The notes under the pieces are model-generated. The model saw nothing but the letters and a program-made list of their open reading frames with translations, was not told the DNA's origin and made no database searches. Both the position numbers and the translations under genes were made by a program. Below, piece by piece: positions 3,484-54,477 of a stretch of DNA of 64,000 nucleotides (position 1 is its first letter; each line of letters starts with the position of its first letter). Origin of the DNA: Eretmocerus hayati (Eukaryota; Arthropoda; Insecta; Hymenoptera; Aphelinidae); the NCBI GenBank assembly GCA_029851415.1, contig CM056742.1, positions 92,556,748 to 92,620,747 on the forward strand, read 5' to 3'.

Positions 3484-3502
3484 CTCACGTGGCGATATTA
3501 TC

Positions 3503-3599: not shown

Positions 3600-4711
3600 C
3601 AACCTGTACCATAAGTAGTGTACATACCAATACCGGGTTGTTGGCTGAATTTTGTATATTCAGGAGGCGTTGTCGAATTTTTTTGTAATTTCTACCTATT
3701 TTTGTAACTTTTGATCAAAAATGTCATTCTAAACATTACATCGGTAATGTTTGGAGAAACTTCACATGCGTAATGAGTTTCTGCTAACCATTACACTATT
3801 TGTTGTGTATTGATCTCAGCAGAAAGCTTTGCCATGAAGGTTAGGAAGTGAGTGCTGTGCTGCTGTGGTTCACATTCTAATATCGGATGTAATCTAGAGA
3901 AATCATTTTCTTTTGTAGTATGGTGCTTGGAAATTCTCTATTGTGCGTGGATTTTTCACTCGCGCGCGCGAGGATCATGTGCTCGCGTGCGCGAAATTTG
4001 CATAAACTTCTGTCTTGTTTTCGCATACGGTAACGTTTGGATTTCCACGCGCGTGAGGATCGTATTTGTTTGATGAGGGAATCGTGCGCGCCGGTCGAGG
4101 TCAAGCCTGGCCGAGGTATTCGGTGCACGTGCGCAGCTTAGAGTTCATGCGGCGACGACGACGTGGCCTGCAATCCACCTGCAGTTTAGTCTGGATGCTG
4201 TTGCCTGTTGCTGTCAGCAGTTGTCGAGTTCTTGAAGATGTCATTCACAGTCCTGGAAAGTGGCATCCGCGGCGAGCTAGATCCGCTCAGTTGTGAAGTT
4301 CACAACTCCTCCGAGCACGAACTAGCCCCAGGTCATCGCACGCACTCTAACTCTCGCATGCTGACGGTTTCATCGACGGCTATCCGTGTAGCGACAGTGT
4401 GCCCAGGCCTGAGTGCGCGTTATTGTAGGGCCGTTTCGTCGTGATCGCATACGTGCCATACGTCTGTTCAGTGCCCAGTGAAGAGTTTTAAATTGTCTGA
4501 CGTACTCTTTTTTTCATGCTCAATTACTTGCATTGTTGGTATTTTCAATTTGCTTCATGTTTCACCAGGCTTCTCTAGTTTATGCTTGTGCGTTGGTAGA
4601 TTTTTTCTGTAAATTACTTAGGTTTTGGAGGCGAAAAAATCATACCAAATCCGTCCAAGGAGAGGTTTGAGCTAATCATCAATACTTCCTAATTTTATAG
4701 TTTCATGTCCC

Positions 4712-4753
4712 AAAGAGCTTGCAAGCATGATAATTCATGCTTGCAAGCTCTTT
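4712..4753. other. Perfect 19-bp hairpin in the left arm
   Basis: AAAGAGCTTGCAAGCATGA (4712-4730) and its reverse complement (4735-4753) flank a 4-base TAAT loop. The counterpart in the right arm keeps 16 paired bases (45436-45451 with 45456-45471). Confidence 0.7.
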
Positions 4754-4969
4754 GCAACAAGATCAAGTACCGTGTCCATTATGTCCAAGTAATAGTAATA
4801 GCACTACAGCTGGTATAATTACATACTTTCAAGTAGACTGGAACGAAGCCGATGCAAATCTTGTTGATGCAGAGATACTCCAATAGGTCCCAAAGCAAGT
4901 ACAAAGGTCAAGATGACTCGCTTGCGCGAGCTTTTCCAGCGCTCAATCGAGCCGAGATTGGCGTATGCC

Positions 4970-5800
4970 ACGGCTAAGATTCCGCACACAAGAGAGTCTC
5001 TATCCGGCGGGTCTCTGATTCGCACAAGGGGTGCCTTGGGACATTTTCCACCATCCAACCATGCCTCTTCTCGTAGTTCTCCACTAAACACAAACTGAAT
5101 TTCCCAAATTCACTCAATGTAGAAACTGCGGCATCTTGCATTAATTATTAAAAACTTTCAAATATTGGAACTGCAAGTGGTCTCGTATGCGTCAGAAATC
5201 AACTGTACCCGTTGCAAATAGTTTTGAACAACGGAGCCAGCTCCAACCAAAACTAAGTCGGCTTCTTCTCTGCAGAATTTGCTGTTATTCATTCCTAAAC
5301 AATGATTATTATGAGAGCAGCCAAGTCGATTGATAAACCGGACTCTAAGTTGTGGGACACTGGCTGTCGCGTGACCCCCGCCGCGTTCCGAAGCGGGCAA
5401 ATACGGAGCCGCCTAAATAACCAGTATCCTATAACTTGGAGTCTGGCTCAGCGGGTGACCTTAGTGCTTTTGTAATAATCATTTTTTAAGAATAAATTAC
5501 AGCGAATTTCGCAGAGAAAAAGATGACACAATTTTTAAGAACTGTTTGCAACGGGGTGCGGTTGATTTCTGATGCATACAATCATTTCCGAAATTTGGAA
5601 ATTTTTGATAATTAATGCAAAATGACTGAGTTTCTGAATGAAGTGAAATTGGGAGACTCAGTTTGTGTTTAGTAGAAAACTACGAGAAAAATCACGGTTG
5701 GGGGGGTCAGAGGTGGATGATGTACCAGAGCACCCGTGATCTGATTCGCGTACGCGAATCCGAGGATGCATCGCGTGAGCGATCGCAAATGTGACCCGCG
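4970..5800. repeat. Inner diverged palindrome within the left arm
   Basis: The segments to each side of about 5395 are imperfect inverted copies. Landmarks that pair across the centre are the AGTTTGTGTTTAGT motif near 5660 with its complement near 5085, the GTTGATTTCTGA motif with its complement near 5195, and the GGATACTGG/CCAGTATCC pair nearest the centre. By eye the halves are roughly 75% alike, far more diverged than the two main arms, so this palindrome predates the large one. Confidence 0.7.
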
Positions 5801-6925
5801 TGCGCGAGCGTTTCATATTCCCAAGAAATATGGAGGTCGCGTTAGCTGAGTTCGGATAACATCTGGTGCGCGATCGGAATCTCCTCCTCTTCAGCCTCAA
5901 ATGTATCTCACCCGCGCGAGAATACTCATATGATGGGATAGACCTCTCAATTGATTTGCGTACGTGAACATAAAGACGCCTCGCGGTGCGAGCAAGCCGA
6001 GACTCGCGTACACGAACGTAAAACCGACTCGCGTGCGCGAGCGACTCATAGTAGTAATTTGGAGCTCGCATCCGCTAAGGTTGGATAACGTCTTGTGCGC
6101 GATCGGGATCTTCTCCTCTAAAGCCTCGCGTGCGCGAGTATGCACCTCACTCGTGGCTGAGAACCCCTGTGATGCGATTGACACCTCAGTTGATTCGCGT
6201 CCGTGAACGTGAAGATACCTCACGTGCGCGAGCAAGCTGAGACTCGCGTACGCGAATGCTGAGCCGATTCGCGTGTGCGAGCAAACCGAGATTCGCGTAC
6301 GCGAATGAAAAGCTGATTCGCGTGCGCGAGCGACTCAAATCCCCGAGTAATTTGGAGCTCGCGTATGCTACGTTTGGACTTCATCTTGTGCGCGATCGGC
6401 ATCTTCTCCTCTTTGGCCTCGCGTACGCGAATATGAATCTCACTCGTGCGTGGAAATTGATGTGATGAAATTGACACCTCAGTTGATTCGCGTCCGTAAA
6501 CGTGAAGATACCTCGCGTGCGCGGGTGAGCCAAGGTTCGCGTACGTAAATGTGAAGCTGATTCGCGTGTGCAAGCAAGCCGAGATTCACGTACGCGAATG
6601 TGAAGCTGATTCGCGTGCGCGAGCAAGCCGAGATTCGCGTACGCGGATGTGAAGCTGATTCGCGTGCGCGAGCGACTCGAATTCCCAAGTAATTTGGGAC
6701 TCGCGTATGCTACGTTTGGATATCATCTTGTGCGCGAGCGGCATCTTCTCCTCTGAGGCCTCGCGCACGCGGATATGGATCTCACTCGTGCATGAAAGCC
6801 CATGTGATGTGATCGACACCTCAGTTGATTTGTGTACGTAAACATGGAGATACTTCGCGTGCGGGCGCAAGCCGAGACTCACGTACGCGAATGTGGAGCT
6901 GACTCGCGTGCGCGAGCGAATTATT
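5740..6925. repeat. Tandem 49-bp repeats with CGCGTACGCG palindromes (left arm)
   Basis: GAAGCTGATTCGCG starts at 6553, 6602 and 6651, a 49-bp period. Each unit carries a TTCGCGTACGCGAA-like palindrome and a CTCGCGCACGCGA-like palindrome. A longer block with the landmark TGCGCGATCGG...CTTCTCCTC recurs near 5859, 6093, 6387 and 6727, giving a variable ~0.23-0.34 kb super-repeat. Long open frames across this region arise because the CG-rich units lack stop codons. Confidence 0.8.
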
Positions 6926-7089
6926 TCCCCAAGTCGATGAAGTCTTATTTTCTCGACGGTGATGTCGAAAAGTCCATAGCGATCGATTTCCAATGACCAA
7001 AACTCGCGAGTAGATGACTCGATGCTCGAGCTGTAACCGACGCTCGCTCAGATTCAGAGCAGATGTGAGGAATTTGCGGGATTGAATCG

Positions 7090-11400: not shown

Positions 11401-13340
11401 TCCAGTGACAGAAATTCGCGAGAAAACGCCTCGATGCTCGAGCTGTAGTCGACGCTCGCTGAGATTCAGAGGAGACGTAAGGAATCGCAGATTTTGGTCA
11501 AACTACCGACTGATTGACATTTAGTCTCTTGCATCCGCACAATTTCGTTGACGGGGATGTTGAAGAATTAATGCCGATTGATATGCAGTGACCGAAATTC
11601 ACGAGACGAGGACCCGACGCTCGAGCCGTAGTCGACTCTCGCGAGGATTCAGAGCGGATGAGAGAAATTTGAGGATTTTGATCAAACTACAGACTAGTTG
11701 TCGATTTGTCTCTTTCATTCACACTATTTTGTCACCGGAGATGTCGTCAAGTCAATGCTGATCGATATCCAATGACCGAAATTCGCGAGAAGATGACTCG
11801 ATGCACGAGTTGTAGTCGACGCTCCTTGAGATTCAGAGCAGATGTACGGAATCTGCGGATTTTAATCAAACTACACACAGATAAACCCTTTGTCTCTTCC
11901 ATTCACACGATTTCGTTGACGGGGATGTCGGAAAGTCAATGCCGATCGATATCGAATGACCGGAACTCGCGAAAAGATGACTCGATGCTCGAGCTGTAGT
12001 CGACGCTCGCTAAGATCGGAAGGAGACGAAAGAAATTCGCGGATTTTAATCAAACTACAGACTAATCGACATCTTGTCTCCTTCACTCACACGATTTTGT
12101 TGACGGGGATGTCGAATAGTCAATGCCGACCGATATCCAATGACCGAAATTCGCGAGAAGATGACTCGATGCTCGAGCTGTAGTCGTGGCTCGCTAAGAT
12201 TCAGTGCAGATGTGAGTAATTCACGGATTTTAATCAAACGACAGACTAATCGACAACTTGTTCCTCTCATTCACACGATTTTGTCGCCGGATATGTTGGG
12301 AAGTCAATTCTCAACCATATCCAGTGACAGAAATTCGCGAGAAAACGCCTCGATGCTCGAGCTGTAGTCGACGCTCGCTGAGATTCAGAGCAGACGTAAG
12401 AAATCGCAGATTTTGGTCAAACTACCGACTGATTGACATTTAGTCTTTTGCATCCGCACGATTTCGTTGACGGGGATGTTGAAGAATCAATGCCGATTGA
12501 TATGCAGTGACCGAAATTCACGAGACGAGGACCCGACGCTCGAGCCGTAGTCGACTCTCGCGAGGATTCAGAGCGGATGAGAGGAATTTGAGGATTTTGA
12601 TCAAACTACAGACTAGTTGTCAATTTGTCTCTTCCATTCACACTATTTTGTCACCGGAGATGTCGTCAAGTCAATGCTGATCGATATCCAATCACCGGAA
12701 TCTCGCGAGAAGATGACTCGATGCACGAGCTGTAGTCGACGCTCCTTGAGATTCAGAGCAGATGTACGGAATCTGCGGATTTTAATCAAACTACACACTG
12801 ATAAACCCTTTGTCTCTTCCATTCACACGTTTTTGTTCACGGGGATGTCGGAAAGTCAGTGCCGATCGATATCGAATGACCTAAATTCGCGAAAAGATGA
12901 CTCGATGCTCGAGCTGTAGTCGACCCTCGCTAAAATCGAAAGGAGACGAAAGAAATTCGCGGATTTCGAATGAACTACAGACTAATCGACATCTTGTCTC
13001 TTTACTCACACGATATTCTTGACGGGGATGTCGAATAGTCAATGCCGATCAATATCCAATGACCGAAATTCGCGAGAAGATGACTAGATGCTCGAGCTGT
13101 AGTCGACGCTCCTTGAGATTCAGAGCAGATATACGGAATCTGCGGATATCAATCAAGGTACACACTAATAAACCCCTTGTCCCTTTCATTCACACCAATT
13201 GGTCACCGGAGATGTCGAAAAGTCAATGCCGATCGATATCCAACGACCGGAACTCGCGAGAAGAAGACTCGATGCTCGAGCTGTAGTCGACTATCGCTAA
13301 GATTCAGAGCAGATGTGAGGAATTTGCGGATTTCAATCAA
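8080..13340 (+). repeat. Segmental duplication, copy 1 (partner 20766-26045)
   Basis: This stretch recurs nearly unchanged 12,686 bp downstream (69 monomers), for example 8278/20964 and 9381/22067. After a 17-bp net insertion at 23204 the offset becomes 12,703 bp. Past 13340 the copies differ by whole 184-bp units, giving later offsets of 12,887 and 13,072 bp. Confidence 0.85.
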
Positions 13341-16300
13341 ACTACACACTAATTGACAACTTGTTCATCTCTTCCACACGATTTAGTTGACGGGGATGTC
13401 GAAAAGTCATTGCCGATCGACATCCAATGAACGAAATTCGCCATAAGATGACTCGATGCTTGAGCTGTGGTCGACGCTCGCTAAGGTTCATAGCAGAAGT
13501 GAGGAATTTGCGGATTTTGATCAAACTACGGACTCATCAATAACTTGTTTCTCCCATTCACACGATTTTGTCGCCGGAGATGTTGGGAAGTCAATCCTCA
13601 TTGATATCCATTGACAGAAATTCGCGAAAATATGACTCGATGCTCGAGTTGTAGTCTATGCTCACGGAGATTCAGAGCAGATGTGAGGAATTTGCGGATT
13701 TCAAGCGAGGTACACACTCTCAAACCCCTTGTCCCTTTCATTCACACCAATTTGTCACCGGAGATGTCGAATAGTCAATGCCGATCGATATCCAATGACC
13801 GAAATTCGCGAGAAGATGACTGGATGCTCGAGCTGTAGTCGTGGCTCGCTAAGATCCAGAGGAGATAGGAGTGATTCACGGATTCCAATCAAACTACAGA
13901 ATAATTGACAACTTGATCCTCTCATTCACACGATTTTGTCGCCAGAGATGTTGGGAGGTCAATTCTCAACCATATCCAGTGACAGAGAATCGCGAGAAAA
14001 CGCCTCGATGCTCGAGCTGTAGTCGACGCTCGATGAGATTCAGAGCAGACGTAAGAAATCGCAGATTTTGGTCAAACTACCGACTAATTGACATTTCGTC
14101 TCTTGCATCCGCACGATTTCGTTGACGGGGATGTTGAAGAATCAATGCCGATTGATATGCAGTGACCGAAATTCACGAGACGGGGACCCGACGCTCGAGC
14201 CGTAGTCGACTCTCGCGAGGATTCAGAGCGAATGAGAGGAATTTGAGGATTTTGATCAAACTACAGACTAGTTGTCAATTTGTCTCTTCCATTCACACTA
14301 TTTTGTCACCGGAGATGTCGTCAAGTCAATGCTGATCGATATCCAATGACCGAAATTCGCGAGAAGATGACTCGATGCACGAGCTGTAGTCGACGCTCCT
14401 TGAGATTCAGAGCAGATGTACGGAATCTGCGGATTTTAATCAAACTACACACTGATAAACCCTTTGTCTCTTTCATTCACACGTTTTTGTTCACGGGGAT
14501 GTCGGAAAGTCAGTGCCGATCGATATCGAATGACCTAAATTCGCGAAAAGATGACTCGATGCTCGAGCTGTAGTCGACCCTCGCTAAAATCGAAAGGAGA
14601 CGAAAGAAATTCGCGGATTTCGAATGAACTACAGACTAATCGACATCTTGTCTCTTTACTCACACGATATTCTTGACGGGGATGTCGAATAGTCAATGCC
14701 GATCAATATCCAATGACCGAAATTCGCGAGAAGATGACTAGATGCTCGAGCTGTAGTCGACGCTCCTTGAGATTCAGAGCAGATATACGGAATCTGCGGA
14801 TATCAATCAAGGTACACACTAATAAACCCCTTGTCCCTTCCATTCACACCAATTGGTCACCGGAGATGTCGAAAAGTCAATGCCGATCGATATCCAACGA
14901 CCGGAACTCGCGAGAAGAAGACTCGATGCTCGAGCTGTAGTCGACTATCGCTAAGATTCAGAGCAGATGTGAGGAATTTGCGGATTTCAATCAAACTACA
15001 CACTAATTGACAACTTGTTCATCTCTTCCACACGATTTAGTTGACGGGGATGTCGAAAAGTCATTGCCGATCGACATCCAATGAACGAAATTCGCCATAA
15101 GATGACTCGATGCTCGAGCTGTGGTCGACGCTCGCTAAGGTTCATAGCAGAAGTGAGGAATTTGCGGATTTTGATCAAACTACGGACTCATCAATAACTT
15201 GTTTCTCCCATTCACACGATTTTGTCGCCGGAGATGTTGGGAAGTCAATCCTCATTGATATCCATTGACAGAAATTCGCGAAAATATGACTCGATGCTCG
15301 AGTTGTAGTCTATGCTCACGGAGATTCAGAGCAGATGTGAGGAATTTGCGGATTTCAAGCGAGGTACACACTCTTAAACCCCTTGTCCCTTTCATTCACA
15401 CCAATTTGTCACCGGAGATGTCGAATAGTCAATGCCGATCGATATCCAATGACCGAAATTCGCGAGAAGATGACTGGATGCTCGAGCTGTAGTCGTGGCT
15501 CGCTAAGATCCAGAGGAGATAGGAGTGATTCACGGATTCCAATCAAACTACAGAATAATTGACAACTTGATCCTCTCATTCACACGATTTTGTCGCCAGA
15601 GATGTTGGGAAGTCAATTCTCAACCATATCCAGTGACAGAGAATCGCGAGAAAACGCCTCGATGCTCGAGCTGTAGTCGACGCTCGATGAGATTCAGAGC
15701 AGACGTAAGAAATCGCAGATTTTGGTCAAACTACCGACTAATTGACATTTCGTCTCTTGCATCCGCACGATTTCGTTGACGGGGATGTTGAAGAATCAAT
15801 GCCGATTGATATGCAGTGACCGAAATTCACGAGACGGGGACCCGACGCTCGAGCCGTAGTCGACTCTCGCGAGGATTCAGAGCGAATGAGAGGAATTTGA
15901 GGATTTTGATCAAACTACAGACTAGTCGTCAATTTGTCTCTTCCATTCACACTATTTTGTCACCGGAGATGTCGTCAAGTCAATGCTGATCGATATCCAA
16001 TGACCGAAATTCGCGAGAAGATGACTCGATGCACGAGCTGTAGTCGACGCTCTTTGAGATTCAGAGCAGATGTACGGAATCTGCGGATTTTAATCAAACT
16101 ACACACTGATAAACCCTTTGTCTCTTCCATTCACACGATTTCGTTGACGGGGATGTCGGAAAGTCAATGCCGATCGATATCGAATGACCGGAACTCGCGA
16201 AAAGATGACTCGATGCTCGAGCTGTAGTCGACGCTCGCTAAGATCGGAAGGAGACGAAAGAAATTCGCGGATTTTAATCAAACTACAGACTAATCGACAT

Positions 16301-19300: not shown

Positions 19301-20155
19301 GATATCCAATGACCGGAATTGGCGAGTAGATGACTCGATGCTCGAGCCGTAGTTGACGCTCGCTAAGATTGAGAGCGGATAAGAGGAATTTGCGGATTTC
19401 AATCAAACTACACACTAATTGACAACTTGTTCATCTCTTTCACACGATTTAGTTGACGGGGATGTCGAAAAGTCATTGCCGATCGACATCCAATGAACGA
19501 AATTCGCCATAAGATGACTCGATGCTCGAGCTGTGGTCGACGCTCGCTAAGGTTCATAGCAGAAGTGAGGAATTTGCGGATTTTGATCAAACTACGGACT
19601 CATCAATAACTTGTTTCTCCCATTCACACGATTTTGTCGCCGGAGATGTTGAGAAGTCAATCCTCATTGATATCCATTGACAGAAATTCGCGAAAATATG
19701 ACTCGATGCTCGAGTTGTAGTCTATGCTTACGGAGATTCAGAGCAGATGTGAGGAATTTGCGGATTTCAAGCGAGGTACACACTCTTAAACCCCTTGTCC
19801 CTTTCATTCACACCAATTTGTCACCGGAGATGACGAATAGTCAATGCCGATCGATATCCAATGACCGAAATTCGCGAGAAGATGACTGGATGCTCGAGCT
19901 GTAGTCGTGGCTCGCTAAGATCCAGAGGAGATAGGAGTGATTCACGGATTTCAATCAAACTACAGAATAATTGACAACTTGATCCTCTCATTCACACGAT
20001 TTTGTCGCCAGAGATGTTGGGAAGTCAATTCTCAACCATATCCAGTGACAGAAAATCGCGAGAAAATGCCTCGATGCTCGAGCTGTAGTCGACGCTCGAT
20101 GAGATTCAGAGCAGACGTAAGAAATCGCAGATTTTGGTCAAACTACCGACTAATT
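11700..20155 (+). repeat. 4,228-bp (23-monomer) higher-order repeat, two tandem copies
   Basis: Corresponding points 11956/16184, 12617/16845, 13611/17839 and 14713/18941 are all 4,228 bp apart. The second copy gains one monomer near 19224. Each copy itself contains a 9-monomer (1,654-bp) duplication, for example 13611/15265 and 14280/15934. Outer limits are approximate. Confidence 0.85.
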
Positions 20156-20765
20156 GACATTTCGTCTCTTCCATCCGCACGATTTTGTTGACGGGGATGT
20201 TGAAGAATCAATGCCGATCGATATGCAGTGAACGAAATTCGCGAGACGAGGACCCGACGCTCGAGCCGTAGTCGACGCTCGCGAAGATTCGGAGCGGATG
20301 AGAGAAATTTGAGGATTTTGATCAAACTACAGACTAGTTGACAATTTGTCTCTTTCCTCCACACTATTTTGTCACCGGAGATGTCGTCAAGTCAATGCTG
20401 ATCGATATCCAATGACCGAAATCTCGCGAGAAGATGACTCGATGCACGAGCTGTAGTCGACGCTCCCTGGGATTCAGAGCAGATTCACGGAATCTGCGGA
20501 TTCCATTCAAACTACACACAAATGAACCCTCTGTCTCTTCCATTCACACAATTTTGTTGACAGGGATGTCGGAAAGTCAATGCCGATCGATATCGAATGA
20601 CCGAAATTCGCGAGGAGATGACTCGGTGCTCAGGCCGTAGTCGACGCTCGCTGAGATTCAAAGCAGATGTAAGGAATTCGCGGATTTGAATCAATTTACA
20701 AACTGATAATCCTTTTGTCTCTCTCATCCACACTATTTCCTCACCGGGGATGTCATGGAGTCAAT

Positions 20766-32060: not shown

Positions 32061-32278
32061 GCTCGCTAAGAATCAGAGCAGATGTAAGGAACTTGCGGAT
32101 TCCAATCAAACTACAGACTAATTGAAAACTTGTCTCTTCCATTCACCCGATTTTGTTGACGGAGATGTCGTAAAGTCAATGTTCATCGAAATCTTATAAT
32201 AGAGAGTCGCGAGACGAGGACCAGAAGCTCGAGCCGTAGTTGACGCTCGCTAAGATTCAGAGCAGATGTGAGGAGTTT

Positions 32279-32336
32279 GCGGATTTTAATCAAACTTCAC
32301 ACTGTCAATTAGTGTGTAGTGCGATTAAAATTCGCC
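32279..32336. other. Centre of the giant palindrome (satellite orientation switch)
   Basis: Monomers read + up to here and - beyond. At the centre CACACT (32298-32303) and AGTGTG (32311-32316) flank GTCAATT, and imperfect pairing continues outward through the GATTTTAATC / GATTAAAATT segments. Confidence 0.85.
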
Positions 32337-35300: not shown

Positions 35301-37983
35301 TGCTCTGAATCTCACCGAGCGTCGAGTACGGCTCGAGCATCGAGTCATCTCCTCGCGAATTTAAGTCATTGGATATCGATCAGCATCGACTTTACGACAT
35401 CTCCTGTGACAAGATAGTGCGAATGAAAAAGACAAAACCTTGATGAGTGTACAGTGTGATTAAAATCGGCAAATTCCTCACATCTGCTCTGAATCTTAGC
35501 GAGCGTCGACTACGGCTCGAGCATCGAGTCATCTCCTCGCGAATTTAAGTCATTGGATATCGATCAGCATTGACTGTACGACATCTCCGGTGACAAAATA
35601 GTGTGAATGGAAGAGACAAAAGGTTTATCAGTGTGTAGTTTCATTAAAATCCGCAGAATCCTCACATCTGCTCTGAATCTTACCGAGCGTCGAGTACGGC
35701 TCGAGCATCGAGTCATCTCCTCGCGAATTTAAGTCATTGGATATCGATCAGCATTGACTTTACGACATCTCCTTTGACAAAATAGTGTGAATGGAAGAGA
35801 CAAAAGGTTGATCAGTGTGTAGATCCATTAAAATCCGCGAAATCCTCACATCTGCTCTGAATCTTACCGAGCGTCGAGTACGGCTCGAGCATCGAGTCAT
35901 CTCCTCGCGAATTTAAGTCATTGGATATCGATCAGCATTGACTTTACGACATCTCCTGTGACAAGATAGTGCAAATGAAGAAGACAAAAGCTCGATGAGT
36001 GTACAGTTTGATTAAAATCCGCAAATTCCTCACATCTGCTCTGAATCTTAGCGAGCGTCGACTACGGCTCGAGCATCGAGTCATCTCCTCGCGAATTTAA
36101 GTCATTGGATATCGATCAGCATTGACTTTACGACATCTCCGGTGACAAAATAGTGTGAATGAGAGAGACAAAAGGTTGATCAGTGTGTAGTTCCATTAAA
36201 ATCCGCGAAATCCTCACATCTGCTCTGAATCTCTCCGAGCGTCGAGTACGGCTCGAGCATCGAGTCATCTCCTCGCGAATTTAAGTCATTGGATATCGAT
36301 CAGCATTGACTTTACGACATCTTCTGTGACAAAATAGTGTGAATGGGAGAGACAAAAGGTTTATCAGAGTGTAGTTTCATTAAAATCCGCAAAATCCTCA
36401 CATCTGCTCTGAATCTTACCGAGCGTCGAGTACGGCTCGAGCATCGAGTCATCTCCTCGCGAATTTAAGTCATTGGATATCGATCAGCATTGACTTTACG
36501 ACATCTCCTGTGACAAAATAGTGTGAATGAAAGAGGCAAAAGGTTGATCAGTGTGTAGTTCCATTGAAATCCGCGAAATCCTCACATCTGCTCTGAATCT
36601 CTCCGAGCGTCGAGTACGGCTCGAGCATCGAGTCATCTCCTCGCGAATTTAAGTCATTGGATATCGATCAGCATTGACTGTACGACATCTCCGGTGACAA
36701 AATAGTGTGAATGGAAGAGACAAAAGGTTTATCAGTGTGTAGTTTCATTGAAATCCGCAACATCCTCACATCTGCTCTAAATCTTACCGAGCGTCGAGTA
36801 CGGCTCGAGCATCGAGTCATCTCCTCGCGAATTTAAGTCATTGGATATCGATCAGCATTGACTGTACGACATCTCCGGTGACAAAATAGTGTGAATGGAA
36901 GAGACAAAAGGTTTATCAGTGTGTAGTTTCATTGAATTCCGCAAAATCCTCACATCTGCTCTGAATCTTACCGAGCGTCGAGTACGGCTCGAGCATCGAG
37001 TCATCTCCTCGCGAATTTAAGTCATTGGATATCGATCAGCATTGACTTTACGACATCTCCCGTGACAAAATAGTGTGAATGAGAGAGACGAAAGGTTGAT
37101 CAGTGTGTAGTTCCATTAAAATCCGTGAAATCCTCACATCTGCTCTGAATCTCTCCGAGCGTCGAGTACGGCTCGAGCATCGAGTCATCTCCTCGCAAAT
37201 TTAAGTCATTGGATATCGATCATCATTGACTTTACGACATCTCCTGTGACAAAATAGTGTGAATGGAAGAGACAAAAGGTTGATCAGTGTGTAGATCCAT
37301 TAAAATCCGCGAAATCCTCACATCTGCTCTGAATCTTACCGAGCGTCGAGTACGGCTCGAGCATCGAGTCATCTCCTCGCGAATTTAAGTCATTGGATAT
37401 CGATCAGCATTGACTTTACGACATCACCTGTGACAAGATAGTGCAAATGAAGAAGACAAAAGCTTGATGAGTGTACAGTTTGATTAAAATCCGCAAATTC
37501 CTCACATCTGCTCTGAATCTTAGCGAGCGTCGACCACGGCTCGAGCGTCGGGTCATCTTCTCGCGAATTTCAGTTATTGGATATCGATCGGCATTGACTT
37601 TTTGACATCACCGTCAACAGAATCGTGTGAGTGAAAGAGACAAAATGTCGATCAGTATGTTGTTTGATTAAAATCCGCAAATTCCTTTCGTCTGCTTTGG
37701 ATCTCAGCGAGCGTCGACTACAGCTCGAGGATCGAGTCATCTCCTCGCGAATTTCGGTCATTGGATATCGATCAGAATCGACTTTACGACATCTCCGGTG
37801 ACCGAATAGCGTGGATGAGAGGGACAAAAGGTTCATCAGTGTGTAATTTGATTCGCATCCGCAAATTCCTCACATCTGCTCTGAATCTTAGCGAGCGTCG
37901 ACTACGGCTCGAGCGTCGGGTCATCTTCTCGCGAATTTCTGTTATTGGATATCGATCGGCATTGACTTTTCGACATCACCGCC
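32307..37983 (-). repeat. ~184-bp satellite array, inverted orientation (about 31 monomers)
   Basis: Same monomer family as the left array but reverse-complemented. It contains a 12-monomer duplication (32514/34721, offset 2,207 bp) and a run of very similar monomers at 33.1-37.4 kb marked by GAATTTAAGTCATTGG and CGTCGAGTACGGCTCGAGC, variants that are rare or absent in the + array. It joins the right arm near 37983. Confidence 0.95.
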
Positions 37984-38019
37984 GAGAATATAAGACTCCA
38001 TCGACTCGGGAAGATAATC

Positions 38020-39140
38020 CACTCACGCACGCGACCCAGCTCCACATTCGCGTACGCGAGTCTCGGCTTGCTCCCGCACTCGAAGTATCTCCACGTTTAC
38101 GTACGCGAATCAACTGAGGTGTCAATCGCATCACATGAGCTTTCATGCACGAGTGAGATTCATATTCGCGTACGCGAGGCCTTAGAAGAGAAGATGCCGC
38201 TCGCGCACAAGATGATATCCAAACGTAGCATACGCGAGTTCCAAATTACATGGGAATTCGAGTCGCTCGCGCACGAGAATCAGCTTTACATTTGCGTACG
38301 TGAATCTCGGATTGGTCGCTCTCGCGAATCAGCTCCACATTCGCGCACGCGAATCTCGGCTTGCTCGCACACGCGAATCAGCTTTACATTCACGTACGCG
38401 AATCTTGGCTCGCTCGCGCACGCCAGGTATCCTCACGTTTACGGACGCGAATCAACTGAGCTTTCAATCGCATAACATGGGCTCTCATGCACGAGTGAGA
38501 TTCATATTCGCGTACGCGAGGCCAAAGAGGAGAAGATCCCGATCGCGCACAAGATGAAGTTCAAACGTAGCATACGCGAGCTCCAAATCACTTGGGAATT
38601 TGAGTCCCTCGCGCACGCGAATCAGATTTACATCCGCGTACGCGAATCTCGGTTTGGTCGCTCTTGCGAATCAGCTTTACATTCGCGTACGCGAATCTCG
38701 ACTTGCTCGCGCACGCGAATCAGCTCCACATTTTCGTACTTGAATCTCGGTTTGCTCGCATACGCGAATCGGCTTCACATTCGCGTACGCGAGTCTCAGC
38801 TTGCTCGCGCACGGGAGGTATCTTCACGTTTACGGACGCGAATCAACTGAGGTGTCAATCGCATCACATGGGTTTTCAGCCATGAGTGAGATACATATTC
38901 GCGCACGTGAGGCTCTAGAGGTGAAGATCTCGATCGCGCACAAGACGTTATCCAACCTGAGCGGACGCGAGCTCCAAATTGCTACTATGAGTCGCTCGCG
39001 CACGCGAGTTAGTTTTACGTTCGCATACGTGAGTTTCGGCTCGCTCGCGCACGCGAGGCATCTTTATGTTTACGTACGCAAATCAATTGAGAGGTCTATC
39101 CCATCATATGAGTATTCTCGCGCGGGTGAGATACATTTGA
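38020..39140. repeat. Tandem CGCGTACGCG palindromic repeats (right arm, inner part)
   Basis: Mirror of 5900-6925, with the same alternation of TTCGCGTACGCGAA-like and CTCGCGCACGCGAA-like palindromes. A short remainder lies beyond the CR1 insertion at 44286-44460. The long frames read across it are composition artefacts. Confidence 0.8.
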
Positions 39141-39697
39141 GTGATACATTACAAAGGGGCGAGTGGCGCTGTAAGTACGAGCAGTCGACAGTGTTTTCGC
39201 TCCACTATTCACAGTGATAATAATACCCCTGTTTGCATTTCCCGAGTGGAAATTTGTTTCAGGTGACCCGGGCACTCGCTGGCTCCTGCAATCGCGAGCA
39301 TACTCGGCTGGGCTCGCAAAATTTGAGTCAGGGTGTCCGTTTCACCTTCAAATTTTGAGGTTACGTGCACACATGCAGTAGCAATCCTGAGCTTGTGGTG
39401 GTAATACGTGCTGATATCAACATCAAAGTGTTAGTGCAAGCGGCTTAAGGCACGTTTACATCATCAGCGACATACGCACATTCTGTCTTCGTCGTGGCCT
39501 CTCAACCAACGCACCACACCAGAGCTAACTTTCTGCGCACGCGTTTCATAGCAGACGCCACATCACTGCATACTGCATAGGCCTTACAACAAGCAGCGAA
39601 TCAGCTGACATCGACATCGTGAGCCGTGTTTGTGAGTGCTATCTTCTGCGAATGACACGACCAAACTATATAGTCGTAATGCCTGCTTGTTCATACT

Positions 39698-40852
39698 ATG
39701 CCCAGGACTAAGTTACGGGCTTCGTGTCCCCTGTGTAAACGTATTGTAAAACCATCTGAGAAATCTGTGAGGTGCGTGCAGTGCCTTGCCCCTTTTCACT
39801 TAGCCTGTCTAAAGATTTCTGCAGAGTTTTTATCAGATTATCGGTGTTCGCGCTGTTCACATCCCGGTACATTATCTGCTAGCTCGTCCGATTCGCTTGC
39901 GCGCTCTGAATTCGCTAGCCCAGTTTCAAAAGTATCCACTCCAAAACGTCCGCGGTCTTCTCCACCATCTGTTGATCTCGAACCTGCTCATAAAACGCAC
40001 TGTGCCAGCATATCGGAATCCTCGAGCGCCTCGTCGCTCCTTGCACTTAGTGAAACCATGGCATCCGGAGCATTTGCCGATTTTGAAAATGATCCTTCTA
40101 CACCCGCGTATATGAAAGCGTTCTATGCAGACGTTATGAGAGAGCAGCGATCCGGTACTGCTGAACTCCGGGCTGAAATCAACACTCTCGCAGCAAAAGT
40201 CGAAGATACTCATATTGCTAATACTAGTGCTATTAAAGAACTGCGTACCGAATGCCGCTCTGAAATAGTAAATACTCGTTCTTTAGTTGACACCTACGAA
40301 ATAAAATTCTCCGGTATCCCGTCGAGTTTCAACTCTAATCTAGTTACAGCCGCTGGTCTACTGCATAACGCGCTCGGCTGCCCCGAAGCTGATAAATTCA
40401 TATTCCAATGTCGCGTATGGCAACCACCTCGCCCTTCACCTAATTTGATTTCAGCTCCCGCAAATGCCCTGGCTAACCCGAATGCGTCTTCGCAACAAGC
40501 AACGCGTCCTGAACAGTTCGCATTCGTTGTTAAATACGCTTCCGCCGCAGTACGCGATACTGTTCAGGCAAGTGGCGGCAAGCTCCGAGACTTGACTGCT
40601 CAGTCAATTTTTGGCGAAGGTGGTAACAATAAAATTTATCTTTCTCCAGTGCTACCCGGGCCTGTGTACCGTATTTTCGGCGCAGCTCTGAGAAAATCCC
40701 GAGAGCTTGGATATGCCCGTCCTGTTCAACGTGGCATGGCTATCTTTATGCGCCAGACACGCACTTCTGCTCTCATACCTATACTGTCTGAGAAAGATTT
40801 AACCGACCTGCCTGCACTTCAACCTTCCACCGGTGAACCTATGGCCCAATGA
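39698..40852 (+). CDS. CR1-like ORF1 protein with PHD-type zinc finger
   Basis: 384 aa. ORF1 proteins of non-LTR elements bind the element RNA and form the ribonucleoprotein particle with ORF2p; a PHD finger in ORF1 is known for CR1-like elements. Residues 10-53 form a C4HC3 pattern: C10, C13, C26, C29, H34, C37, C50, C53. Residues ~60-115 are Ser/Pro-rich and probably disordered. An alpha-helical, coiled-coil-like segment follows (~150-200), then a globular region to about 370. The ATG at 39698 is the first in this frame immediately before the zinc finger. The ORF ends in TGA (40850-40852), and the reading frame continues open, in the same frame, straight into ORF2. No frameshift or stop is seen within it. 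Confidence 0.9.
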   Translation: MPRTKLRASCPLCKRIVKPSEKSVRCVQCLAPFHLACLKISAEFLSDYRCSRCSHPGTLSASSSDSLARSEFASPVSKVSTPKRPRSSPPSVDLEPAHKTHCASISESSSASSLLALSETMASGAFADFENDPSTPAYMKAFYADVMREQRSGTAELRAEINTLAAKVEDTHIANTSAIKELRTECRSEIVNTRSLVDTYEIKFSGIPSSFNSNLVTAAGLLHNALGCPEADKFIFQCRVWQPPRPSPNLISAPANALANPNASSQQATRPEQFAFVVKYASAAVRDTVQASGGKLRDLTAQSIFGEGGNNKIYLSPVLPGPVYRIFGAALRKSRELGYARPVQRGMAIFMRQTRTSALIPILSEKDLTDLPALQPSTGEPMAQ

Positions 40853-43800
40853 GATTCGGCTGGTCTAGAGAGCGCTTCGTCTGTCAACAATCATTCGAAT
40901 AGAGCACTTTCAGTAGGGCATATAAACATCAACAGATTGAAAAATAATTTCAACCTATTAGAACACCAATGCACTCTCAGGAGATACGACGTCATTGCGA
41001 TTTCTGAAACATTTTTGACCCCGTTGGACAGCGCTGAACCCTTTTTACTAGATGGGTTCTCTTTTCACCGCCATGACAGGCTGGGCAAAGAGGGTGGGGG
41101 CATCTGCTTGTATACACGTGCTGATTTCAATGTCAAAGTTCTTGCAGCATCTGACCAACAATTTTCTAATTCTCCTGAGTTTGTAATTTATGAATTAAAG
41201 GTCGCAAAATCTAAGATACTCTTTGCTGTTGTTTATCGACGACCCTCTGCGTCTTACCCTCATGCTTTTTTCGATACAATTTCACCTTTTTTACCTCTTT
41301 ATACTCATTGCATCATAACTGGCGATTTCAACATGAATATGGCAATCGATTACCCTCTCTCCAGAGCACTTCAGAATATGTTAGATACTTATGCCCTTCA
41401 GCTGGTAAGCACAAAACCGACCCATCATTCGACATGGGTCACCGATGGTAGTTCACACCACACTTGCCTTGATCTATTCATAGTGCGTCATCAGTCTGCA
41501 GTGTTATCATACCGACAATCGGCCACACCTTTTGCAGCAGGGCACGATTTCATTGAGATTGATTATTCCATTGCCACCCCATCTCCGCCGCCTAGGACAA
41601 TTATCACTAGATCTCTTGCCCATCTCAACAGCTCCGAGCTATATGAAGAGGTTAAAAATAACATCAAACAAGATATTTTCCCTTTGCAACCGACAATCCA
41701 TTCTCTAGACCCCTTGGACGGATCTCGCCTTCACGCGACCAATGTAAATAATGTAAATATTGTATATAATGATACCTTGCTCAATCCCAAGTTATTAGAT
41801 TTAAGTTCACCTGTATTCTCCAGCCTATCCGCTGGTGATATTGACGAGAAAGTCAAGCACTTGACCAAGGCCACTCTAACTGCATTCGACAAACTTGCCC
41901 CGTGCAAAACGATCACCGTCTCGTCTCATCACCACAAACCGTGGGTTACAGCCGATATTAGGCGCATCATGGATCAGCGTGATCGGCTATACCGGAGAGC
42001 CCAACGTACTCAGTCTATTGCAGATCATGAGAGATATAGAGCCCTTCGAACTGAAGCTAAGAACTCACTCGACTCTAGCAAAAATCGCTTCATCTCAAAT
42101 CGCCTTAATTCAGCTCCTGACTCTAAAACAACATGGCGTGAGCTCCGCAAATTGGGCTTAGCAACGCGCAAACTACCTTCGCCACTTACTGTTTTTTCTC
42201 CTACAGCTTTGAATACTCACTTTGCATCTGTTGCATCACAAGGTGATCCCTTGACAGAGGCGGAAGTTGAGCGCATATGCCGTACAGCCATCCCTGACGG
42301 CACTCCAATATTTGATTTTGTCCCCATCTCAGAAGTCGACGTGCTCAATGCTCATGCTCATAGTAACTCTCACGGAGTTGGGGAAGATCAAATCTCATCC
42401 GGAATGCTCAAATCAGCTCTCCCACCCCTCGCGCCTTACCTTTCTCAGCTGTTCAATGAATCACTCTCGACAGGTCATTTTCCTACATGCTGGAAACATG
42501 CCTCAGTGATTCCTTTGGCGAAGAAATCTCCGCTCACTACCGTATCCGACACCAGGCCCATAGCACAACTATCTGAACCGTCTAAAATACTTGAGAGACT
42601 CGTTCACGATCAGCTTATGAACCATCTGCTCACAAACAAGTTACTCAACCCTCAACAAGCTGGGTTTCGCCCTGGTCATTCAACTCAAACTGCTCTTCTT
42701 GATCTTATCGAGAACACTCATATAGCCATAGATAAGCATCAACTCACTGTGCTAATTTCATTTGACTTCTCCAAAGCTTTTGACACTATATCTCATGCAA
42801 AACTTCTGCAGAAGCTTCGTAAATATGGCTGTACTGAAAGAGTAGTACGTTGGTTTGCTAGTTATCTTCAAGGTCGCACGCAAGCCGTGAGATCTGACGA
42901 CGGCAATCACTCGGAGTGGCTTCCATTAACAACAGGTGTCCCCCAAGGTAGCTGTCTTGGCCCTCTCCTTTTCCTCATCTTGATTAACGACCTTCCGCAG
43001 TGTCTTCTTCACTCAAAGAACATTATTTATGCAGACGACACGCAAATTTTTCGTCACTGCACGGTGGATCAGCTCACAACATGCATAGAATTACTGAACC
43101 AAGATGCCAACGCGATTGTTCAGTGGGCGGCTGAAAACGAGCTGAAGCTCAATGCAGACAAGACCACGATTATTATTCTGGGTAGCCGGAAAAATATCGA
43201 TGCTCTGAAGAGATTAGCTACCCCGAAAATTACTATCTCTGGTGTCGAAATACCCTTTTCTTCATCAATAAAAAGCCTTGGCATCCTCATCACACCTGAA
43301 CTTGATTGGGATGCCCAAATAAGGTCGGTCATACGCCGAGTTCATACCACACTTCAAACGTTGCGAGTTTATCATAAATCTCTGTCACGATCTTTGAAAC
43401 GTAAACTCGTACAGTGCTTGGCATTGCCATATTTTGACTATGCAGCCCCCGTATATTACCATATGACTGAGGCTCAAAAACTGAAACTCCAACGCCTGCA
43501 AAATGCATGTATTCGCTTCATTTTTGGGAACATTCCTTGGCGAGATCACGTATCGCCTTTCCGCCTATCCCTCGGGTGGTTATCGGCCAAACGCAGACGA
43601 CGATATCTTGTCGGTTGTCTTGCCTACAAGATCATCACCTCCGGCGTTCCTACACCCCTATACTCTCTCTTCCAATTCAAACCTGAGCATTCAGCATATT
43701 CCTTGAGATCCTCTGGAGTGCTCACCTATACTACCCCCCGAACAAAGAGCCGTGAGAAGTCATTCACCCTAGTTGCAACTAGGCTACTAAACAAAGTGTA

Positions 43801-43954
43801 CCCCCATGATCTCCATTCTATATCTTTCAACGAGTTCAAGACGCTGCTTTTCTGCTTTCTACTCGAACGCGACAAGGCAGATTGGACAGAGAGAGCGCGA
43901 GTATCGGATGTTCCATACATTCCCCCTTCTCTTGTGGGAAAGCTGGAACTGTGA
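40853..43954 (+). CDS. CR1-like ORF2: AP endonuclease and reverse transcriptase
   Basis: Open from the codon after the ORF1 stop (about 1,033 codons). The product nicks target DNA and reverse-transcribes the element RNA at the nick. The endonuclease-typical GHININ start is at 40916-40933. Counting from the TTG at 40937: SETF with catalytic Glu24, YRRP (100-103), GDFN (129-132), a CLDLF strand and a GHDFIE motif. Reverse transcriptase: QAGFRPGHST, FDFSKAFD (609-616), GVPQGSCLGP, YADD (698-701) and LNADKT. There is no RNase H; the C-terminus has the usual LQRLQNACIRF region. There is no in-frame AUG before codon ~133, which lies inside the endonuclease, so initiation must be by UGA readthrough, stop-coupled reinitiation or a non-AUG codon. 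All catalytic motifs I can identify are intact. Confidence 0.9.
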   Translation, partial: DSAGLESASSVNNHSNRALSVGHININRLKNNFNLLEHQCTLRRYDVIAISETFLTPLDSAEPFLLDGFSFHRHDRLGKEGGGICLYTRADFNVKVLAASDQQFSNSPEFVIYELKVAKSKILFAVVYRRPSASYPHAFFDTISPFLPLYTHCIITGDFNMNMAIDYPLSRALQNMLDTYALQLVSTKPTHHSTWVTDGSSHHTCLDLFIVRHQSAVLSYRQSATPFAAGHDFIEIDYSIATPSPPPRTIITRSLAHLNSSELYEEVKNNIKQDIFPLQPTIHSLDPLDGSRLHATNVNNVNIVYNDTLLNPKLLDLSSPVFSSLSAGDIDEKVKHLTKATLTAFDKLAPCKTITVSSHHHKPWVTADIRRIMDQRDRLYRRAQRTQSIADHERYRALRTEAKNSLDSSKNRFISNRLNSAPDSKTTWRELRKLGLATRKLPSPLTVFSPTALNTHFASVASQGDPLTEAEVERICRTAIPDGTPIFDFVPISEVDVLNAHAHSNSHGVGEDQISSGMLKSALPPLAPYLSQLFNESLSTGHFPTCWKHASVIPLAKKSPLTTVSDTRPIAQLSEPSKILERLVHDQLMNHLLTNKLLNPQQAGFRPGHSTQTALLDLIENTHIAIDKHQLTVLISFDFSKAFDTISHAKLLQKLRKYGCTERVVRWFASYLQGRTQAVRSDDGNHSEWLPLTTGVPQGSCLGPLLFLILINDLPQCLLHSKNIIYADDTQIFRHCTVDQLTTCIELLNQDANAIVQWAAENELKLNADKTTIIILGSRKNIDALKRLATPKITISGVEIPFSSSIKSLGILITPELDWDAQIRSVIRRVHTTLQTLRVYHKSLSRSLKRKLVQCLALPYFDYAAPVYYHMTEAQKLKLQRLQNACIRFIFGNIPWRDHVSPFRLSLGWLSAKRRRRYLVGCLAYKIITSGVPTPLYSLFQFKPEHSAYSLRSSGVLTYTTPRTKSREKSFTLVATRLLNKVYPHDLHSISFNEFKTLLFCFLLERDKADWTERARVSDVPYIPPSLVGKLEL

Positions 43955-44237
43955 ATAGTTCAAATAATTATAAGTGATTTTTCCGCTTTTTATTTTATTT
44001 TTATTTTAAATGAAATTTTTCTTTCAAATTATGTCATTTCTATCATTTTTATCTAATTATGAATTAAGCACCCAATTAGCCACTGCCACTGCACGCACCA
44101 CTGAAATATTGTTAAGAATCGTACGCCACTCATGCTTTTGACATGCTTTTGATACTTCTGAGTACACTTCTCTGATTAATCTATTCATAAGTGTATAATT
44201 ATATTTCTTGTATATGATCATTCTCTTAGAGTCTGAT

Positions 44238-44285
44238 GGGGTTGTACCCCTAGACTTCAATAAAATCTTATCAATCAATCAATCA
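44238..44285 (+). promoter_or_regulatory. CR1 3' end: hairpin, polyadenylation signal and (TCAA)n tail
   Basis: GGGG-TTGTA-CCCC (44238-44250) forms a small hairpin, AATAAA follows at 44259-44264, and the element ends in TCAATCAATCAA repeats. Such 3' hairpins and short repeats are typical recognition sites for the reverse transcriptase of stringent non-LTR elements. Confidence 0.7.
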
Positions 44286-44339
44286 ATTTGAGGCTGAACA
44301 GGAGGAGATTCCGATCGCGCACCAGATGTTATCCGAACT

Positions 44340-45230
44340 CAGCTAACGCGAGCTCCATATTTCTTGGGAATATGAAACGCTCGCGCTCGCGGGTTACATT
44401 TGCGATCGCTCACGCGAGGCATCCTCGGATTCGCGTACGCGAATCAGATCAGGGGTGCTCTGGTACATCATCCACCACTGACCCCCCAACCGTGATTTTT
44501 CTCGTAGTTTTCTACTAAACAGAAACTGAGTCTCCCAATTTCACTTCATTCAGAAACTCAGTCATTTCGCATCAATTATTAAAAATCCCCTAATATCGGA
44601 AATGATCGTATGCATCAGAAATCAACCGCACTCCGTTGCGAACAGTTCTAGAAAATTGTGTCATCTTTTTTCTGCGGAATCCGCTGTAATCTATTCTTAA
44701 AAAATGATTATTACATTAGCACTCAGGTCACCCGCTGAGCCAGACTCCAAGTTATAGGATACTGGTTATTTAGGCGGCTTCGTATCTGTCCGCTTCGGAA
44801 CGTGGTGGGGAACACGCGACAGCCAGTGTCCCACAACTTAGAGTCCGGTTTATCAATCGACTTGGCTGCTCTCATGATAATCATTGTTTAGAAATGAATA
44901 ACAGCGAATTCTGCAGAGAAGATGCCGTTTTAGTTTTGGTTGGAGCTGGCTCCATTTTTCAAAACTATTTGCAACGGATACAGTTGATTTCTGACGCATA
45001 CGAGACCACTTGCAGTCCCAATATTCGAAAGTTTTCAATGATTAATGCAAGATGCCTCAGTTTCTACATTGAGTGAACTTGGGGGATTCAGTTTGTGTTT
45101 AGTGGAGAACTACGAAAAGAGTCATGGTTGGATGGTGGAAAATGTCCCACGGCACCCCTTGTGCGAATCAGAGACCTGCCGGATAGAGACTCTCGCGTGC
45201 GCGGAATCTTAGCCGTGGCATACGCCAATC
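44340..45230. repeat. Inner diverged palindrome within the right arm
   Basis: Mirror image of 4970-5800, centred near 44785. It shows the same pairing landmarks (GTTGATTTCTGA, GGATACTGG and AAACTGAGT/ATTCAGTTT). Its presence in both arms dates it before the formation of the large palindrome. Confidence 0.65.
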
Positions 45231-45435
45231 TCGGCTTGATTGAGCACTGGAAAAGCTCGCGCAAGCGAGTCATCTTCACCTTTGTACTTGCTTTGGACCC
45301 TATTGGAGTATCTCTGCATCAACAAGATTTGCATCATCTTCCTTTCAGTCTACTTGAAAGTATGTAGTTATACCAGCTGTAGTGCTATTACTATTACTTG
45401 GACATAATGGCCACGGTACTTGATCTTGTTGCGGA

Positions 45436-45471
45436 GAGCTTGCAAGCATGAATTATCATGCTTGCAAGCTC
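45436..45471. other. Hairpin in the right arm (partner of 4712-4753)
   Basis: GAGCTTGCAAGCATGA (45436-45451), loop ATTA, and the reverse complement (45456-45471). The outer three base pairs of the left-arm version are lost here. Confidence 0.65.
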
Positions 45472-46562
45472 TTTGGGACATAAAACTATAAAATGAGGAA
45501 GTATTGATGATTAGCTCAAACTTCTCCTTGAAGGGATTTGGTATGATTTTTTCGTCTCCAAAACCTGAGTAATTTTCAGAATAAATCTACCAACGCACAA
45601 GCATAAACTAGAGAAGCCTGGTGAAACATGAAGCAAATTGAAAATATCAACAATGCAAGTAATTGAGCATGAAAAAAAGAGTACGTCAGACAATTTAAAA
45701 CTTTCACTGGGCACTGAGCAGACGTATGGCACGTATGCGATCACGACGAAACGGCCCTACAATAACGCGCACTCAGGCCTGGGCACACTGTCGCTACACG
45801 GATAGCCGTCGATGAAACCGTCAGCATGCGAGAGTTAGAGTGCGTGCGATGACCTGGGGCTAGTTCGTGCTCGGAGGAGTTGTGAACTTCACAACTGAGC
45901 GGATCTAGCTCGCCGCGGATGCCACTTCCCAGGACTGTGGATGACATCTTCAAGAACTCGACAATTGCTGACAGCAACAGGCAACAGCACCCAGACCAAA
46001 CTGCAGGTGGATTGCAGGCCACGTCGTCGTCGCCGCATGAACTCTAAGCTGCGCACGTGCACCGAATACCTCGGCCAGGCCTGACCTCGGCCGGCGTGCA
46101 CGATTCCCACATCAAACAAATACGATCCTCACGCGCGTGGAAATCCAAACGTTACCGTATGCGAAAACAAGACAGAAGTTTATGCGAATTTCGCGCGCGC
46201 GAGTGATATATCCGCGCACGATAGAGGATTCCCAAGCACCACAATACAAAAGGAAATGATTTCTCTAGATTACATCCGATACTAAAATGTGAACCACAGC
46301 AGCACAGCACTCCCTTCCTAACCTTCATAGCAAAGCTTTCTGCTATGATCATTACACAACAAATAGTGTAATGGTTAGCACAAAATCATTACACATGTGA
46401 AGTTGCTCCAAACATTACCGATGTAATGTTTAGAATGACATTTTTGATCAAAAGTTACAAAAATAGGTAGAAATTACAAAAAAATCCGACAACGCCTCCT
46501 GAATATCCGAAATTCAGCCAACAACCCGGTATTGGTATGTACACTACTTATGGTACAGGTTG

Positions 46563-54404: not shown

Positions 54405-54477
54405 GCCTGGACCCAGATTTGAACTGGGGGCCTTCTTCACACCGGGAAAGACACTCTACCAGCTGAGCTATCCAGGG
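54405..54477 (-). tRNA. tRNA-like gene, copy 2
   Basis: Identical to copy 1 over 73 nt, 343 bp away, with the same downstream T6 terminator and the same defective anticodon arm. Confidence 0.6.

Follow-up and report, generated by a model that had tools for sequence, protein, structure and literature searches.

A 43-kb palindrome at positions 3600-46562 of a 64,000-nucleotide stretch of the genome of the parasitoid wasp Eretmocerus hayati (hereafter the window; assembly GCA_029851415.1, contig CM056742.1, positions 92,556,748 to 92,620,747) raises the question of whether so large a structure is a single transposable element and, if so, whether it moved at its present size. An earlier note made from the sequence alone had described it as an exceptionally large non-autonomous foldback transposon, possibly of a new family. 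Analysis of the window together with searches of the whole genome indicates that it very probably belongs to a family of non-autonomous, satellite-carrying foldback DNA transposons which insert at TA and whose satellite arrays grow in place after landing.

Anatomy of the foldback element and its empty site

The complete element occupies 3600-46562, with termini beginning CAACCTGTACCATAAGTAGTGTACAT... inverted at both ends (terminal sequence CAACNTGTACCANAAGTAG), and its host sequence is a (TA)n tract within a long terminal repeat (LTR), present as (TA)n flanks at 3591-3599 on the left and 46563-46574 on the right. The inverted ends had been called perfect, and 30/30 positions were identical between 3591-3620 and 46571-46542. 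From the outside inward each arm is ordered as a non-tandem outer domain, a domain of 49-bp and approximately 293-342-bp subrepeats and a tandem array. On the left (plus strand) these lie at 3600-5720, which contains nested palindromes at 4703-4762 (83%) and 5055-5701 (68%), at 5721-6946 and at 6947-32310, respectively. On the right (minus strand) the outer domain is found at 44286-46562, the inner part of the 49-bp subrepeat domain at 37986-39141 and the array at 32311-37985, with a 5.1-kb retroelement at 39142-44285 nested in the arm. The motif CGCGNNCGCG is dense in the left subrepeat domain (14 occurrences in the 1.2 kb of 5721-6946), with 11 occurrences in 38001-39141, 2 and 4 in the outer domains and none in the 3.6-kb left flank or the 17.4-kb right flank.

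An uninterrupted match between the arms extends 2,312 bp from the ends at 94.0% identity before the retroelement is reached, and when the retroelement is left out 3,319 positions align with 204 differences (6.15%) and 138 gap positions (left arm 3600-6946). The arms of approximately 3.4 kb described previously are therefore present; they do not end there, as past this point both run on into tandem arrays of one 184-bp unit. The forward array (6947-32303) contains 137.8 copies (138 monomer anchors) with nested block duplications and the reverse array (32356-37981) contains 30.6 copies (31 monomer anchors), and the two opposed arrays join at a palindrome centre at approximately 32311 (32303-32320) with a short loop only, there being no spacer or middle domain between the arms. 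These two arrays form the bulk of the element, such that one arm exceeds 28 kb and one array alone comprises 138 monomers. A comparison aimed at the origin of the 184-bp unit within the arm was not convincing (the best score was 29, and 60 shuffles reached up to 28), and two further comparisons scored below the maximum of their shuffles. As in foldback elements generally, long inverted repeats of several domains with variable tandem subrepeats make up most of the element, and its inverted ends and arms, together with the family found elsewhere in the genome, confirm the giant palindromic foldback first described.

The flanks had been reported to rejoin into the uninterrupted 3' LTR of the window, and this was borne out by alignment of 3501-3599 with 63375-63473 (88.9% identity) and of 46563-47085 with 63480-64000 (94.6% identity). 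The empty copy (63375-64000, plus strand, running off the window) has its TA tract at 63465-63491, a tract of 27 bases as against 9 + 12 bases at the filled site. Outside the tract, the left part of the interrupted LTR (3501-3590, plus strand) and the right part overlapping the window's 3' LTR (46575-47085, plus strand) differ from the empty copy at 37/599 positions (6.2%; Kimura two-parameter distance 0.065), which is an upper bound, in sequence units, on the age of the insertion. The TA-type flanks noted earlier are thus present, but because they lie in a microsatellite the target-site duplication (TSD) is not readable at this locus and was read from other copies.

A dispersed family and its target site

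Of 323 candidates found with the first 601 bases as query, 40 were scored and match at 84-100% identity, and a 26-mer terminus pattern gave 62 matches genome-wide with up to 2 mismatches and 111 with up to 3, the reversed control giving 0 in each case. Pairing of the 100 listed of these 111 ends produced 34 facing inverted pairs, 19 measuring 0.73-1.76 kb and 15 measuring 5.2-97.0 kb, and left 32 ends unpaired, indicating that truncated or diverged copies exist too. With three copies that have poorer ends, found in the 601-base search, the large copies number 18 including that of the window and range from 5.2 to 97 kb. The description of the window copy as exceptionally large holds for its 43 kb, but it is not unique, as two copies are larger (86 and 97 kb) and the size at which it jumped was probably smaller. 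Eleven other large copies were examined along their length in the assembly (in the case of C2:69.0 Mb all but the leftmost 0.7 kb), and 20 kb was sampled inside each of the two largest, so that 13/17 other large loci were read wholly or partly and four large copies lie outside the sample. Family arms and 184-bp monomers were present in 11/11 of the copies examined along their length, and the 49-bp CGCG-rich subrepeat domain was clear in 10/11 and weakly seen in C2:72.5 Mb. Within the two largest copies, 4/4 interior samples of 10 kb consisted of monomers over 9,993-10,000 bases. Among 12 copies including the window's, five have two opposed array blocks, six a single block, in which the inverted part is the arms only, and one has two blocks oriented the same way. 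These results answer the question of whether other copies have the same ends (111 terminus matches), target duplication (TA on both sides in 13/13) and arms (11/11). Neither termini unique to this locus nor copies breaking at other points, which the earlier note had named as grounds for rejecting its reading, appeared in the genome search. Exact terminus and monomer patterns gave 0 matches in viral contigs, and the exact terminus pattern gave 0 in prokaryote genomes.

The family also includes relatives of approximately 1.1 kb (L052-L063) of the miniature inverted-repeat transposable element (MITE) type. Two of these, L052 and L053, have inverted ends of approximately 180 bp that are 80-84% like those of the giant copy and contain small 19-42-bp subrepeats, a long tandem array being absent; it is possible that such relatives represent the ancestral form of the giants. 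Two other short pairs, C1:80210752-80212017 (1,266 bp) and C1:77122804-77124560 (1,757 bp), have a giant-type end on at least one side each. A 34-kb copy (L044-L047 joined) contains approximately 10 kb without monomers at 12094-22374, which is probably another nested insertion.

TA was found outside 29/30 ends and ATA outside 28/30. TA borders the element on either side in all 13 large copies for which the two ends were examined, and in 6/13 a direct repeat cannot extend beyond TA (for example ...CCCTATA / TACACC... and ...GTATATA / TATGG...). A clean empty site was identified for C4:82293223-82300068, with 140/140 positions identical on the left, 299/300 on the right and a 2-bp overlap, which is TA. 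Among the short relatives TA is present on both sides in 9/12, the others having a poor or missing right end. The exact TA duplication points to Tc1/mariner-type insertion rather than to the 7-10-bp TSDs of Galileo, Tetris and Mutator foldbacks. Both the 7-bp TSD of Galileo in the P superfamily and the 8-10-bp TSDs of the Mutator superfamily (Tetris, MuTAnT, Tm1) conflict with the six copies that exclude them and with the 2-bp overlap at the clean empty site. For P itself the TSD is 8 bp. A TA TSD is a hallmark of IS630-Tc1-mariner elements (PMC7325037), and it is the target, and the target only, that supports IS630-Tc1-mariner membership of the present family. The clean empty site is an inverted copy of the target, without the element, that lies within approximately 1 kb of the end of the C4:82.3 Mb element (C4:82300675-82301112, the reverse complement of L004, 457-894), and its near-identity to the flanks reflects a local inverted duplication of the target from which the element is absent.

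Evidence that members have moved as units was obtained from three sister copies of 5.2-6.8 kb at C3:19.4, C4:82.3 and C2:152.9 Mb, which carry 14, 14 and 5 monomers, respectively, and have unlike flanks. The best-matching block shared by these copies is 99.4% identical over 2.9-5.3 kb, and the two pairs that include the C3 copy share a further 2.0-kb block at 97.6-97.8% identity. Same-side ends of the sisters group across copies in a tree of 30 ends, at a distance of 0.2-0.4%, whilst the two ends within one sister copy differ by 3.3-3.7%, and the nearest neighbour of 30/30 sister-copy monomers lies in another sister at an identity of at least 98.4%. As both ends and monomers group across copies, the whole unit, array included, has transposed, and the family combines identical ends at different sites with a target duplication and an empty site, as expected of a mobile foldback element. 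For the other seven end pairs in the tree the two ends are sisters in five (window, C1:115, C4:64, C2:63 and C1:138) and not in C1:84 and C2:81 (topology only, without support values). Homogenisation of arms is not shown by this grouping, because C1:115 is the only copy whose best match, judged by plain identity, is its own other end; the window ends are slightly closer to C1:115 (0.963 and 0.967) than to each other (0.949).

Proposed growth of the arrays and competing explanations

The history of the arrays was addressed by nearest-neighbour comparison of 579 monomers from 15 sources, the 86- and 97-kb copies being represented by their 20-kb samples. For window monomers the nearest neighbour lies in the same arm in 135/136 cases on the left and 29/30 on the right, and it lies within the same copy for 94/98 monomers of the 86-kb copy, 98/104 of the 97-kb copy and 69/69 of the 34-kb copy; in smaller copies the corresponding values are 20/22, 17/21, 11/13, 10/10, 9/12 and 8/12. 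Twins within the same array are found at 97% identity or above for 126/137 left and 22/30 right monomers of the window copy, and at 99% or above for 105/137 and 8/30. The fraction of monomers with a twin of at least 97% within their source is 0.92 in the 86-kb copy, 0.91 in the window left array, 0.86 in the 34-kb copy, 0.73 in the window right array and 0.37 in the 97-kb copy, with values of 0-0.17 in smaller copies. Five sub-blocks of the left array, chosen by means of the nearest-neighbour list, recur 69, 47, 23, 14 and 9 monomers away with 99.2-100% identity; the average for the left array in its entirety is 0.87 at an offset of 69. The highest identity between a left and a right monomer in the window copy is 89.7%. 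Most monomers in each of the four giants studied are specific to their copy, and in three of these giants most are near-identical, so that a large part of the 43 kb appears to have been added once the element was in place. The element probably did not jump at 43 kb, since 5.1 kb of that length is a later retroelement and much of the satellite consists of near-identical block duplications that have diverged less than the LTRs. When monomers are clustered at the LTR divergence, 34 left and 8 right lineages result (left 29-39 depending on method), and on a rough estimate that assumes pure duplication the element landed with approximately 42 monomers, at a length of 14-15 kb, and later growth brought it to 38 kb, to which the retroelement is added.

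On the reading of a TA-inserting foldback family with in-place array growth, a Tc1/mariner-type transposase supplied in trans would recognise the ends and insert the element at TA, favouring ATA|TAT and TA microsatellites. Once the element has landed, the array of each arm could be enlarged independently by unequal exchange or by block duplication during replication (template switching), perhaps helped by the inverted arms, and a unit of perhaps 7-15 kb would thereby reach 34-97 kb; in the window copy the CR1-like retroelement entered the right arm. Additional sites for binding may be provided by the CGCG-rich subrepeats, a role considered for Galileo (PMC4079207; PMC3573991).

Several observations weigh against this reading, among them that no transposase carried by an element with family ends was found in open reading frame (ORF) scans or among DDE_3 matches. 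None of the nine arm ORFs contained a Pfam family above cut-off (the scan also took one ORF of the LTR element), and no stop-to-stop frame of at least 120 amino acids (aa) lies wholly inside the arrays. Of 12 short relatives fetched, 11 could be scanned between two located ends, and their frames do not exceed 184 aa; in C2:72.5 Mb, which is the most diverged of the large copies and encloses an old array, frames do not exceed 112 aa. These results agree with the previous description of the element as non-autonomous with no visible transposase. The transposase-bearing element with the same termini that had been proposed as a target of search did not emerge, as 0/150 scored DDE_3 matches (821 first-look candidates) fell inside an end pair, and the closest approach of any of them to a listed end is 16 kb. 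As the genome is rich in DDE_3 matches, a source of activity is plausible. A PF01359 profile search gave no match and, with its control equally silent, was uninformative. The two short pairs with giant-type ends mentioned above are candidate transposase-bearing or deleted members and could not be read. The terminus may resemble the repeat of the mariner Himar1, with ATAAGT in common, a similarity that is given no weight here. At the target, the remaining 7/13 copies lie in TA-rich sites that also permit 4, 6 or 8 bp, and the only clean empty site belongs to one of these seven, being itself in a short TA tract. The filled site at C1:138.8 Mb has an extra 8 bp relative to a paralogous empty site, and the paralogue of C2:81.9 Mb yields no simple junction. 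Copy-privacy of monomers is weaker in some smaller copies (the 8/12, 9/12 and 17/21 above) and at C2:81.9 Mb the nearest neighbour is in the same copy for only 5/22, the opposed palindromic layout is confined to 5/12 copies, and the estimate of array size at landing ignores gene conversion, which would change the figure.

Insertion of a giant unit by cut-and-paste at about its present 38-43 kb, satellite arrays included, is unlikely, although arrays do travel with the element in the three sister copies, the 34 left and 8 right monomer lineages or thereabouts predate the LTR divergence even under growth in situ, and the ends of the 86-kb copy, only 1.9% apart, could mean recent transposition when large. 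Set against these are the 105/137 left monomers with a twin of at least 99% in the same array, the nested duplicate blocks at offsets of 9 to 69 monomers that are closer than the 6.2% LTR divergence, the lack of any left-right monomer pair above 0.897 identity and the fact that the copies shown to move as units measure only 5.2-6.8 kb. The size itself could in principle be a product of assembly, an assembler having joined the arms or inflated the array; near-identical blocks are hard to assemble, the array length could be wrong and the unit counts given here are assembly counts. Facing ends recur, however, at 17 other loci, with the array seen in 13/17 (those read wholly or partly). An artefact is also made very improbable by the 6% difference between the arms, the presence of the retroelement in one arm only and the use of HiFi reads at 693x with hifiasm (PMC10482854).

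A Mutator- or P-superfamily foldback like Tetris, Galileo or MuTAnT, with a longer TSD masked by TA repeats, would account for the overall design, which is that of Tetris and Galileo (PMC4079207; PMC3573991), and for the seven copies whose sites permit 4-8 bp, and MuTAnT also targets TA microsatellites with TSDs of 9 bp (PMC4486113). This affiliation is nonetheless quite doubtful given the six copies that permit nothing beyond TA and a clean empty site with an overlap of exactly 2 bp. Helentrons are known to carry short satellite arrays (PMC7492417; PMC12628747), and a Helitron or Helentron with satellite monomers, as in the Pacific oyster, was considered as a further source of the structure. 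A TA target duplication and multi-kb inverted arms at both ends do not fit such an element, and this origin is extremely improbable. Helitrons and Helentrons lack both a TSD and long terminal inverted repeats (TIRs) and encode a RepHel protein, features at odds with the present family; the search for a Rep/helicase consisted of the Pfam scan of 17 window reading frames.

Neighbouring features, related systems and significance

The retroelement at 39142-44285 (plus strand) is a passenger separate from the foldback. It is confined to the right arm, flanked by a 7-bp ATTTGAG duplication (39135-39141 and 44286-44292), and the left arm keeps the uninterrupted counterpart of its insertion site. It is a non-LTR element to which we give the clade label CR1-like; ORF1 contains a PHD finger just over the Pfam cut-off, ORF2 encodes an endonuclease and a reverse transcriptase, both are open from stop to stop and the tail is (ATCA)n. 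With both frames open and a 7-bp TSD it is apparently full-length and looks young. Between the LTRs of the window, reverse transcriptase and RNase H domains were identified, 'Gypsy' being the label of the earlier note. The same 16-kb region contains a 747-aa frame (57869-60112) that is 99% identical to E. hayati QAD02_003058 and has no Pfam family in a Pfam scan; eight further relatives at 28-48% identity are all E. hayati entries, and this is possibly a lineage-restricted gene family. An identical pair of 74-bp tRNA-Thr(GGT)-like sequences lies on the minus strand at 54061-54134 and 54404-54477, 343 bp apart, GGT being an unusual anticodon in eukaryotes. Directly upstream of the interrupted LTR, a tRNA-like stretch at 3417-3480 (GATAGCTCAGTGG...GGTTCGAATCCCA) is possibly the head of a short interspersed nuclear element.

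The closest precedent for the family is Tetris of Drosophila virilis, likewise a non-autonomous foldback with a TIR and flanking domain, no known transposase, an internal tandem repeat of approximately 220 bp that varies in number and expands to satellite arrays of up to 66 copies, and a smaller relative with common ends, DAIBAM (PMC4079207). Tetris differs in having TIRs of up to 1,735 bp and TSDs of 8-10 bp, and its authors suggested a Mutator affiliation (PMC4079207); the present family is set apart from that description by its TA duplication and its 184-bp unit, and the window copy by an arm of more than 28 kb, an array of 138 monomers and opposed arrays without a middle domain. Galileo, of the P superfamily, also has long TIRs, longest in non-autonomous copies, and internal tandem repeats that expand independently at the two ends, but its TSDs are 7 bp, its TIRs do not exceed approximately 1.26 kb and the repeat is present two to three times (2-3 copies) in D. 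mojavensis (PMC3573991), as against TA and up to more than 100 monomers here. With TA as its target duplication, the present family is related to Galileo in structure only, and the earlier comparison accordingly stands for structure and fails for the TSD. The Mutator-like MuTAnT elements are likewise non-autonomous foldbacks concentrated in TA microsatellites; they are plant elements of approximately 0.2-1.6 kb with a 9-bp TSD, and the excerpt of their description mentions no satellite array (PMC4486113). Tm1, a Mutator/foldback element of root-knot nematodes, shares composite TIRs with variable tandem subrepeats and differs in its 9-bp TSD, 13-15-bp subrepeats and known transposase-bearing members (PMC3169594). 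IS630-Tc1-mariner elements share the TA duplication, and foldback arms this large with satellite arrays are not mentioned in the excerpt of that source (PMC7325037). No match to a described family could be made, in keeping with the suggestion that the family may be new. Searches of open-licence literature, which leaves most subscription papers outside its scope, listed no earlier report of a TA-duplicating satellite foldback of tens of kb, and, to judge by title and abstract, a transposon is the subject of none of the 10 listed out of 33 open-licence papers whose text contains terminus 11-mers.

The origin and spread of satellite arrays is a standing question, and the family has arms far longer than the TIRs of Tetris (up to 1.7 kb; PMC4079207) or Galileo (approximately 1.3 kb; PMC3573991). 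Its members include small founders, mobile sisters, intermediate sizes and four very large copies; their ends can be identified, and some also provide an empty site and a clock in the form of LTR or flank duplicates, so that jumping and growing in place become separable and can be timed. We lean slightly towards a two-step dispersal of satellite DNA, in which a compact TA-inserting foldback of 5-15 kb plants a short array and its arms and array then drive block amplification in situ to islands of approximately 30-100 kb. If this is correct, these satellite islands would be bounded by transposon ends, each with a datable founding insertion, and satellite DNA spread by a transposon and then growing at its landing site would be caught in the act.

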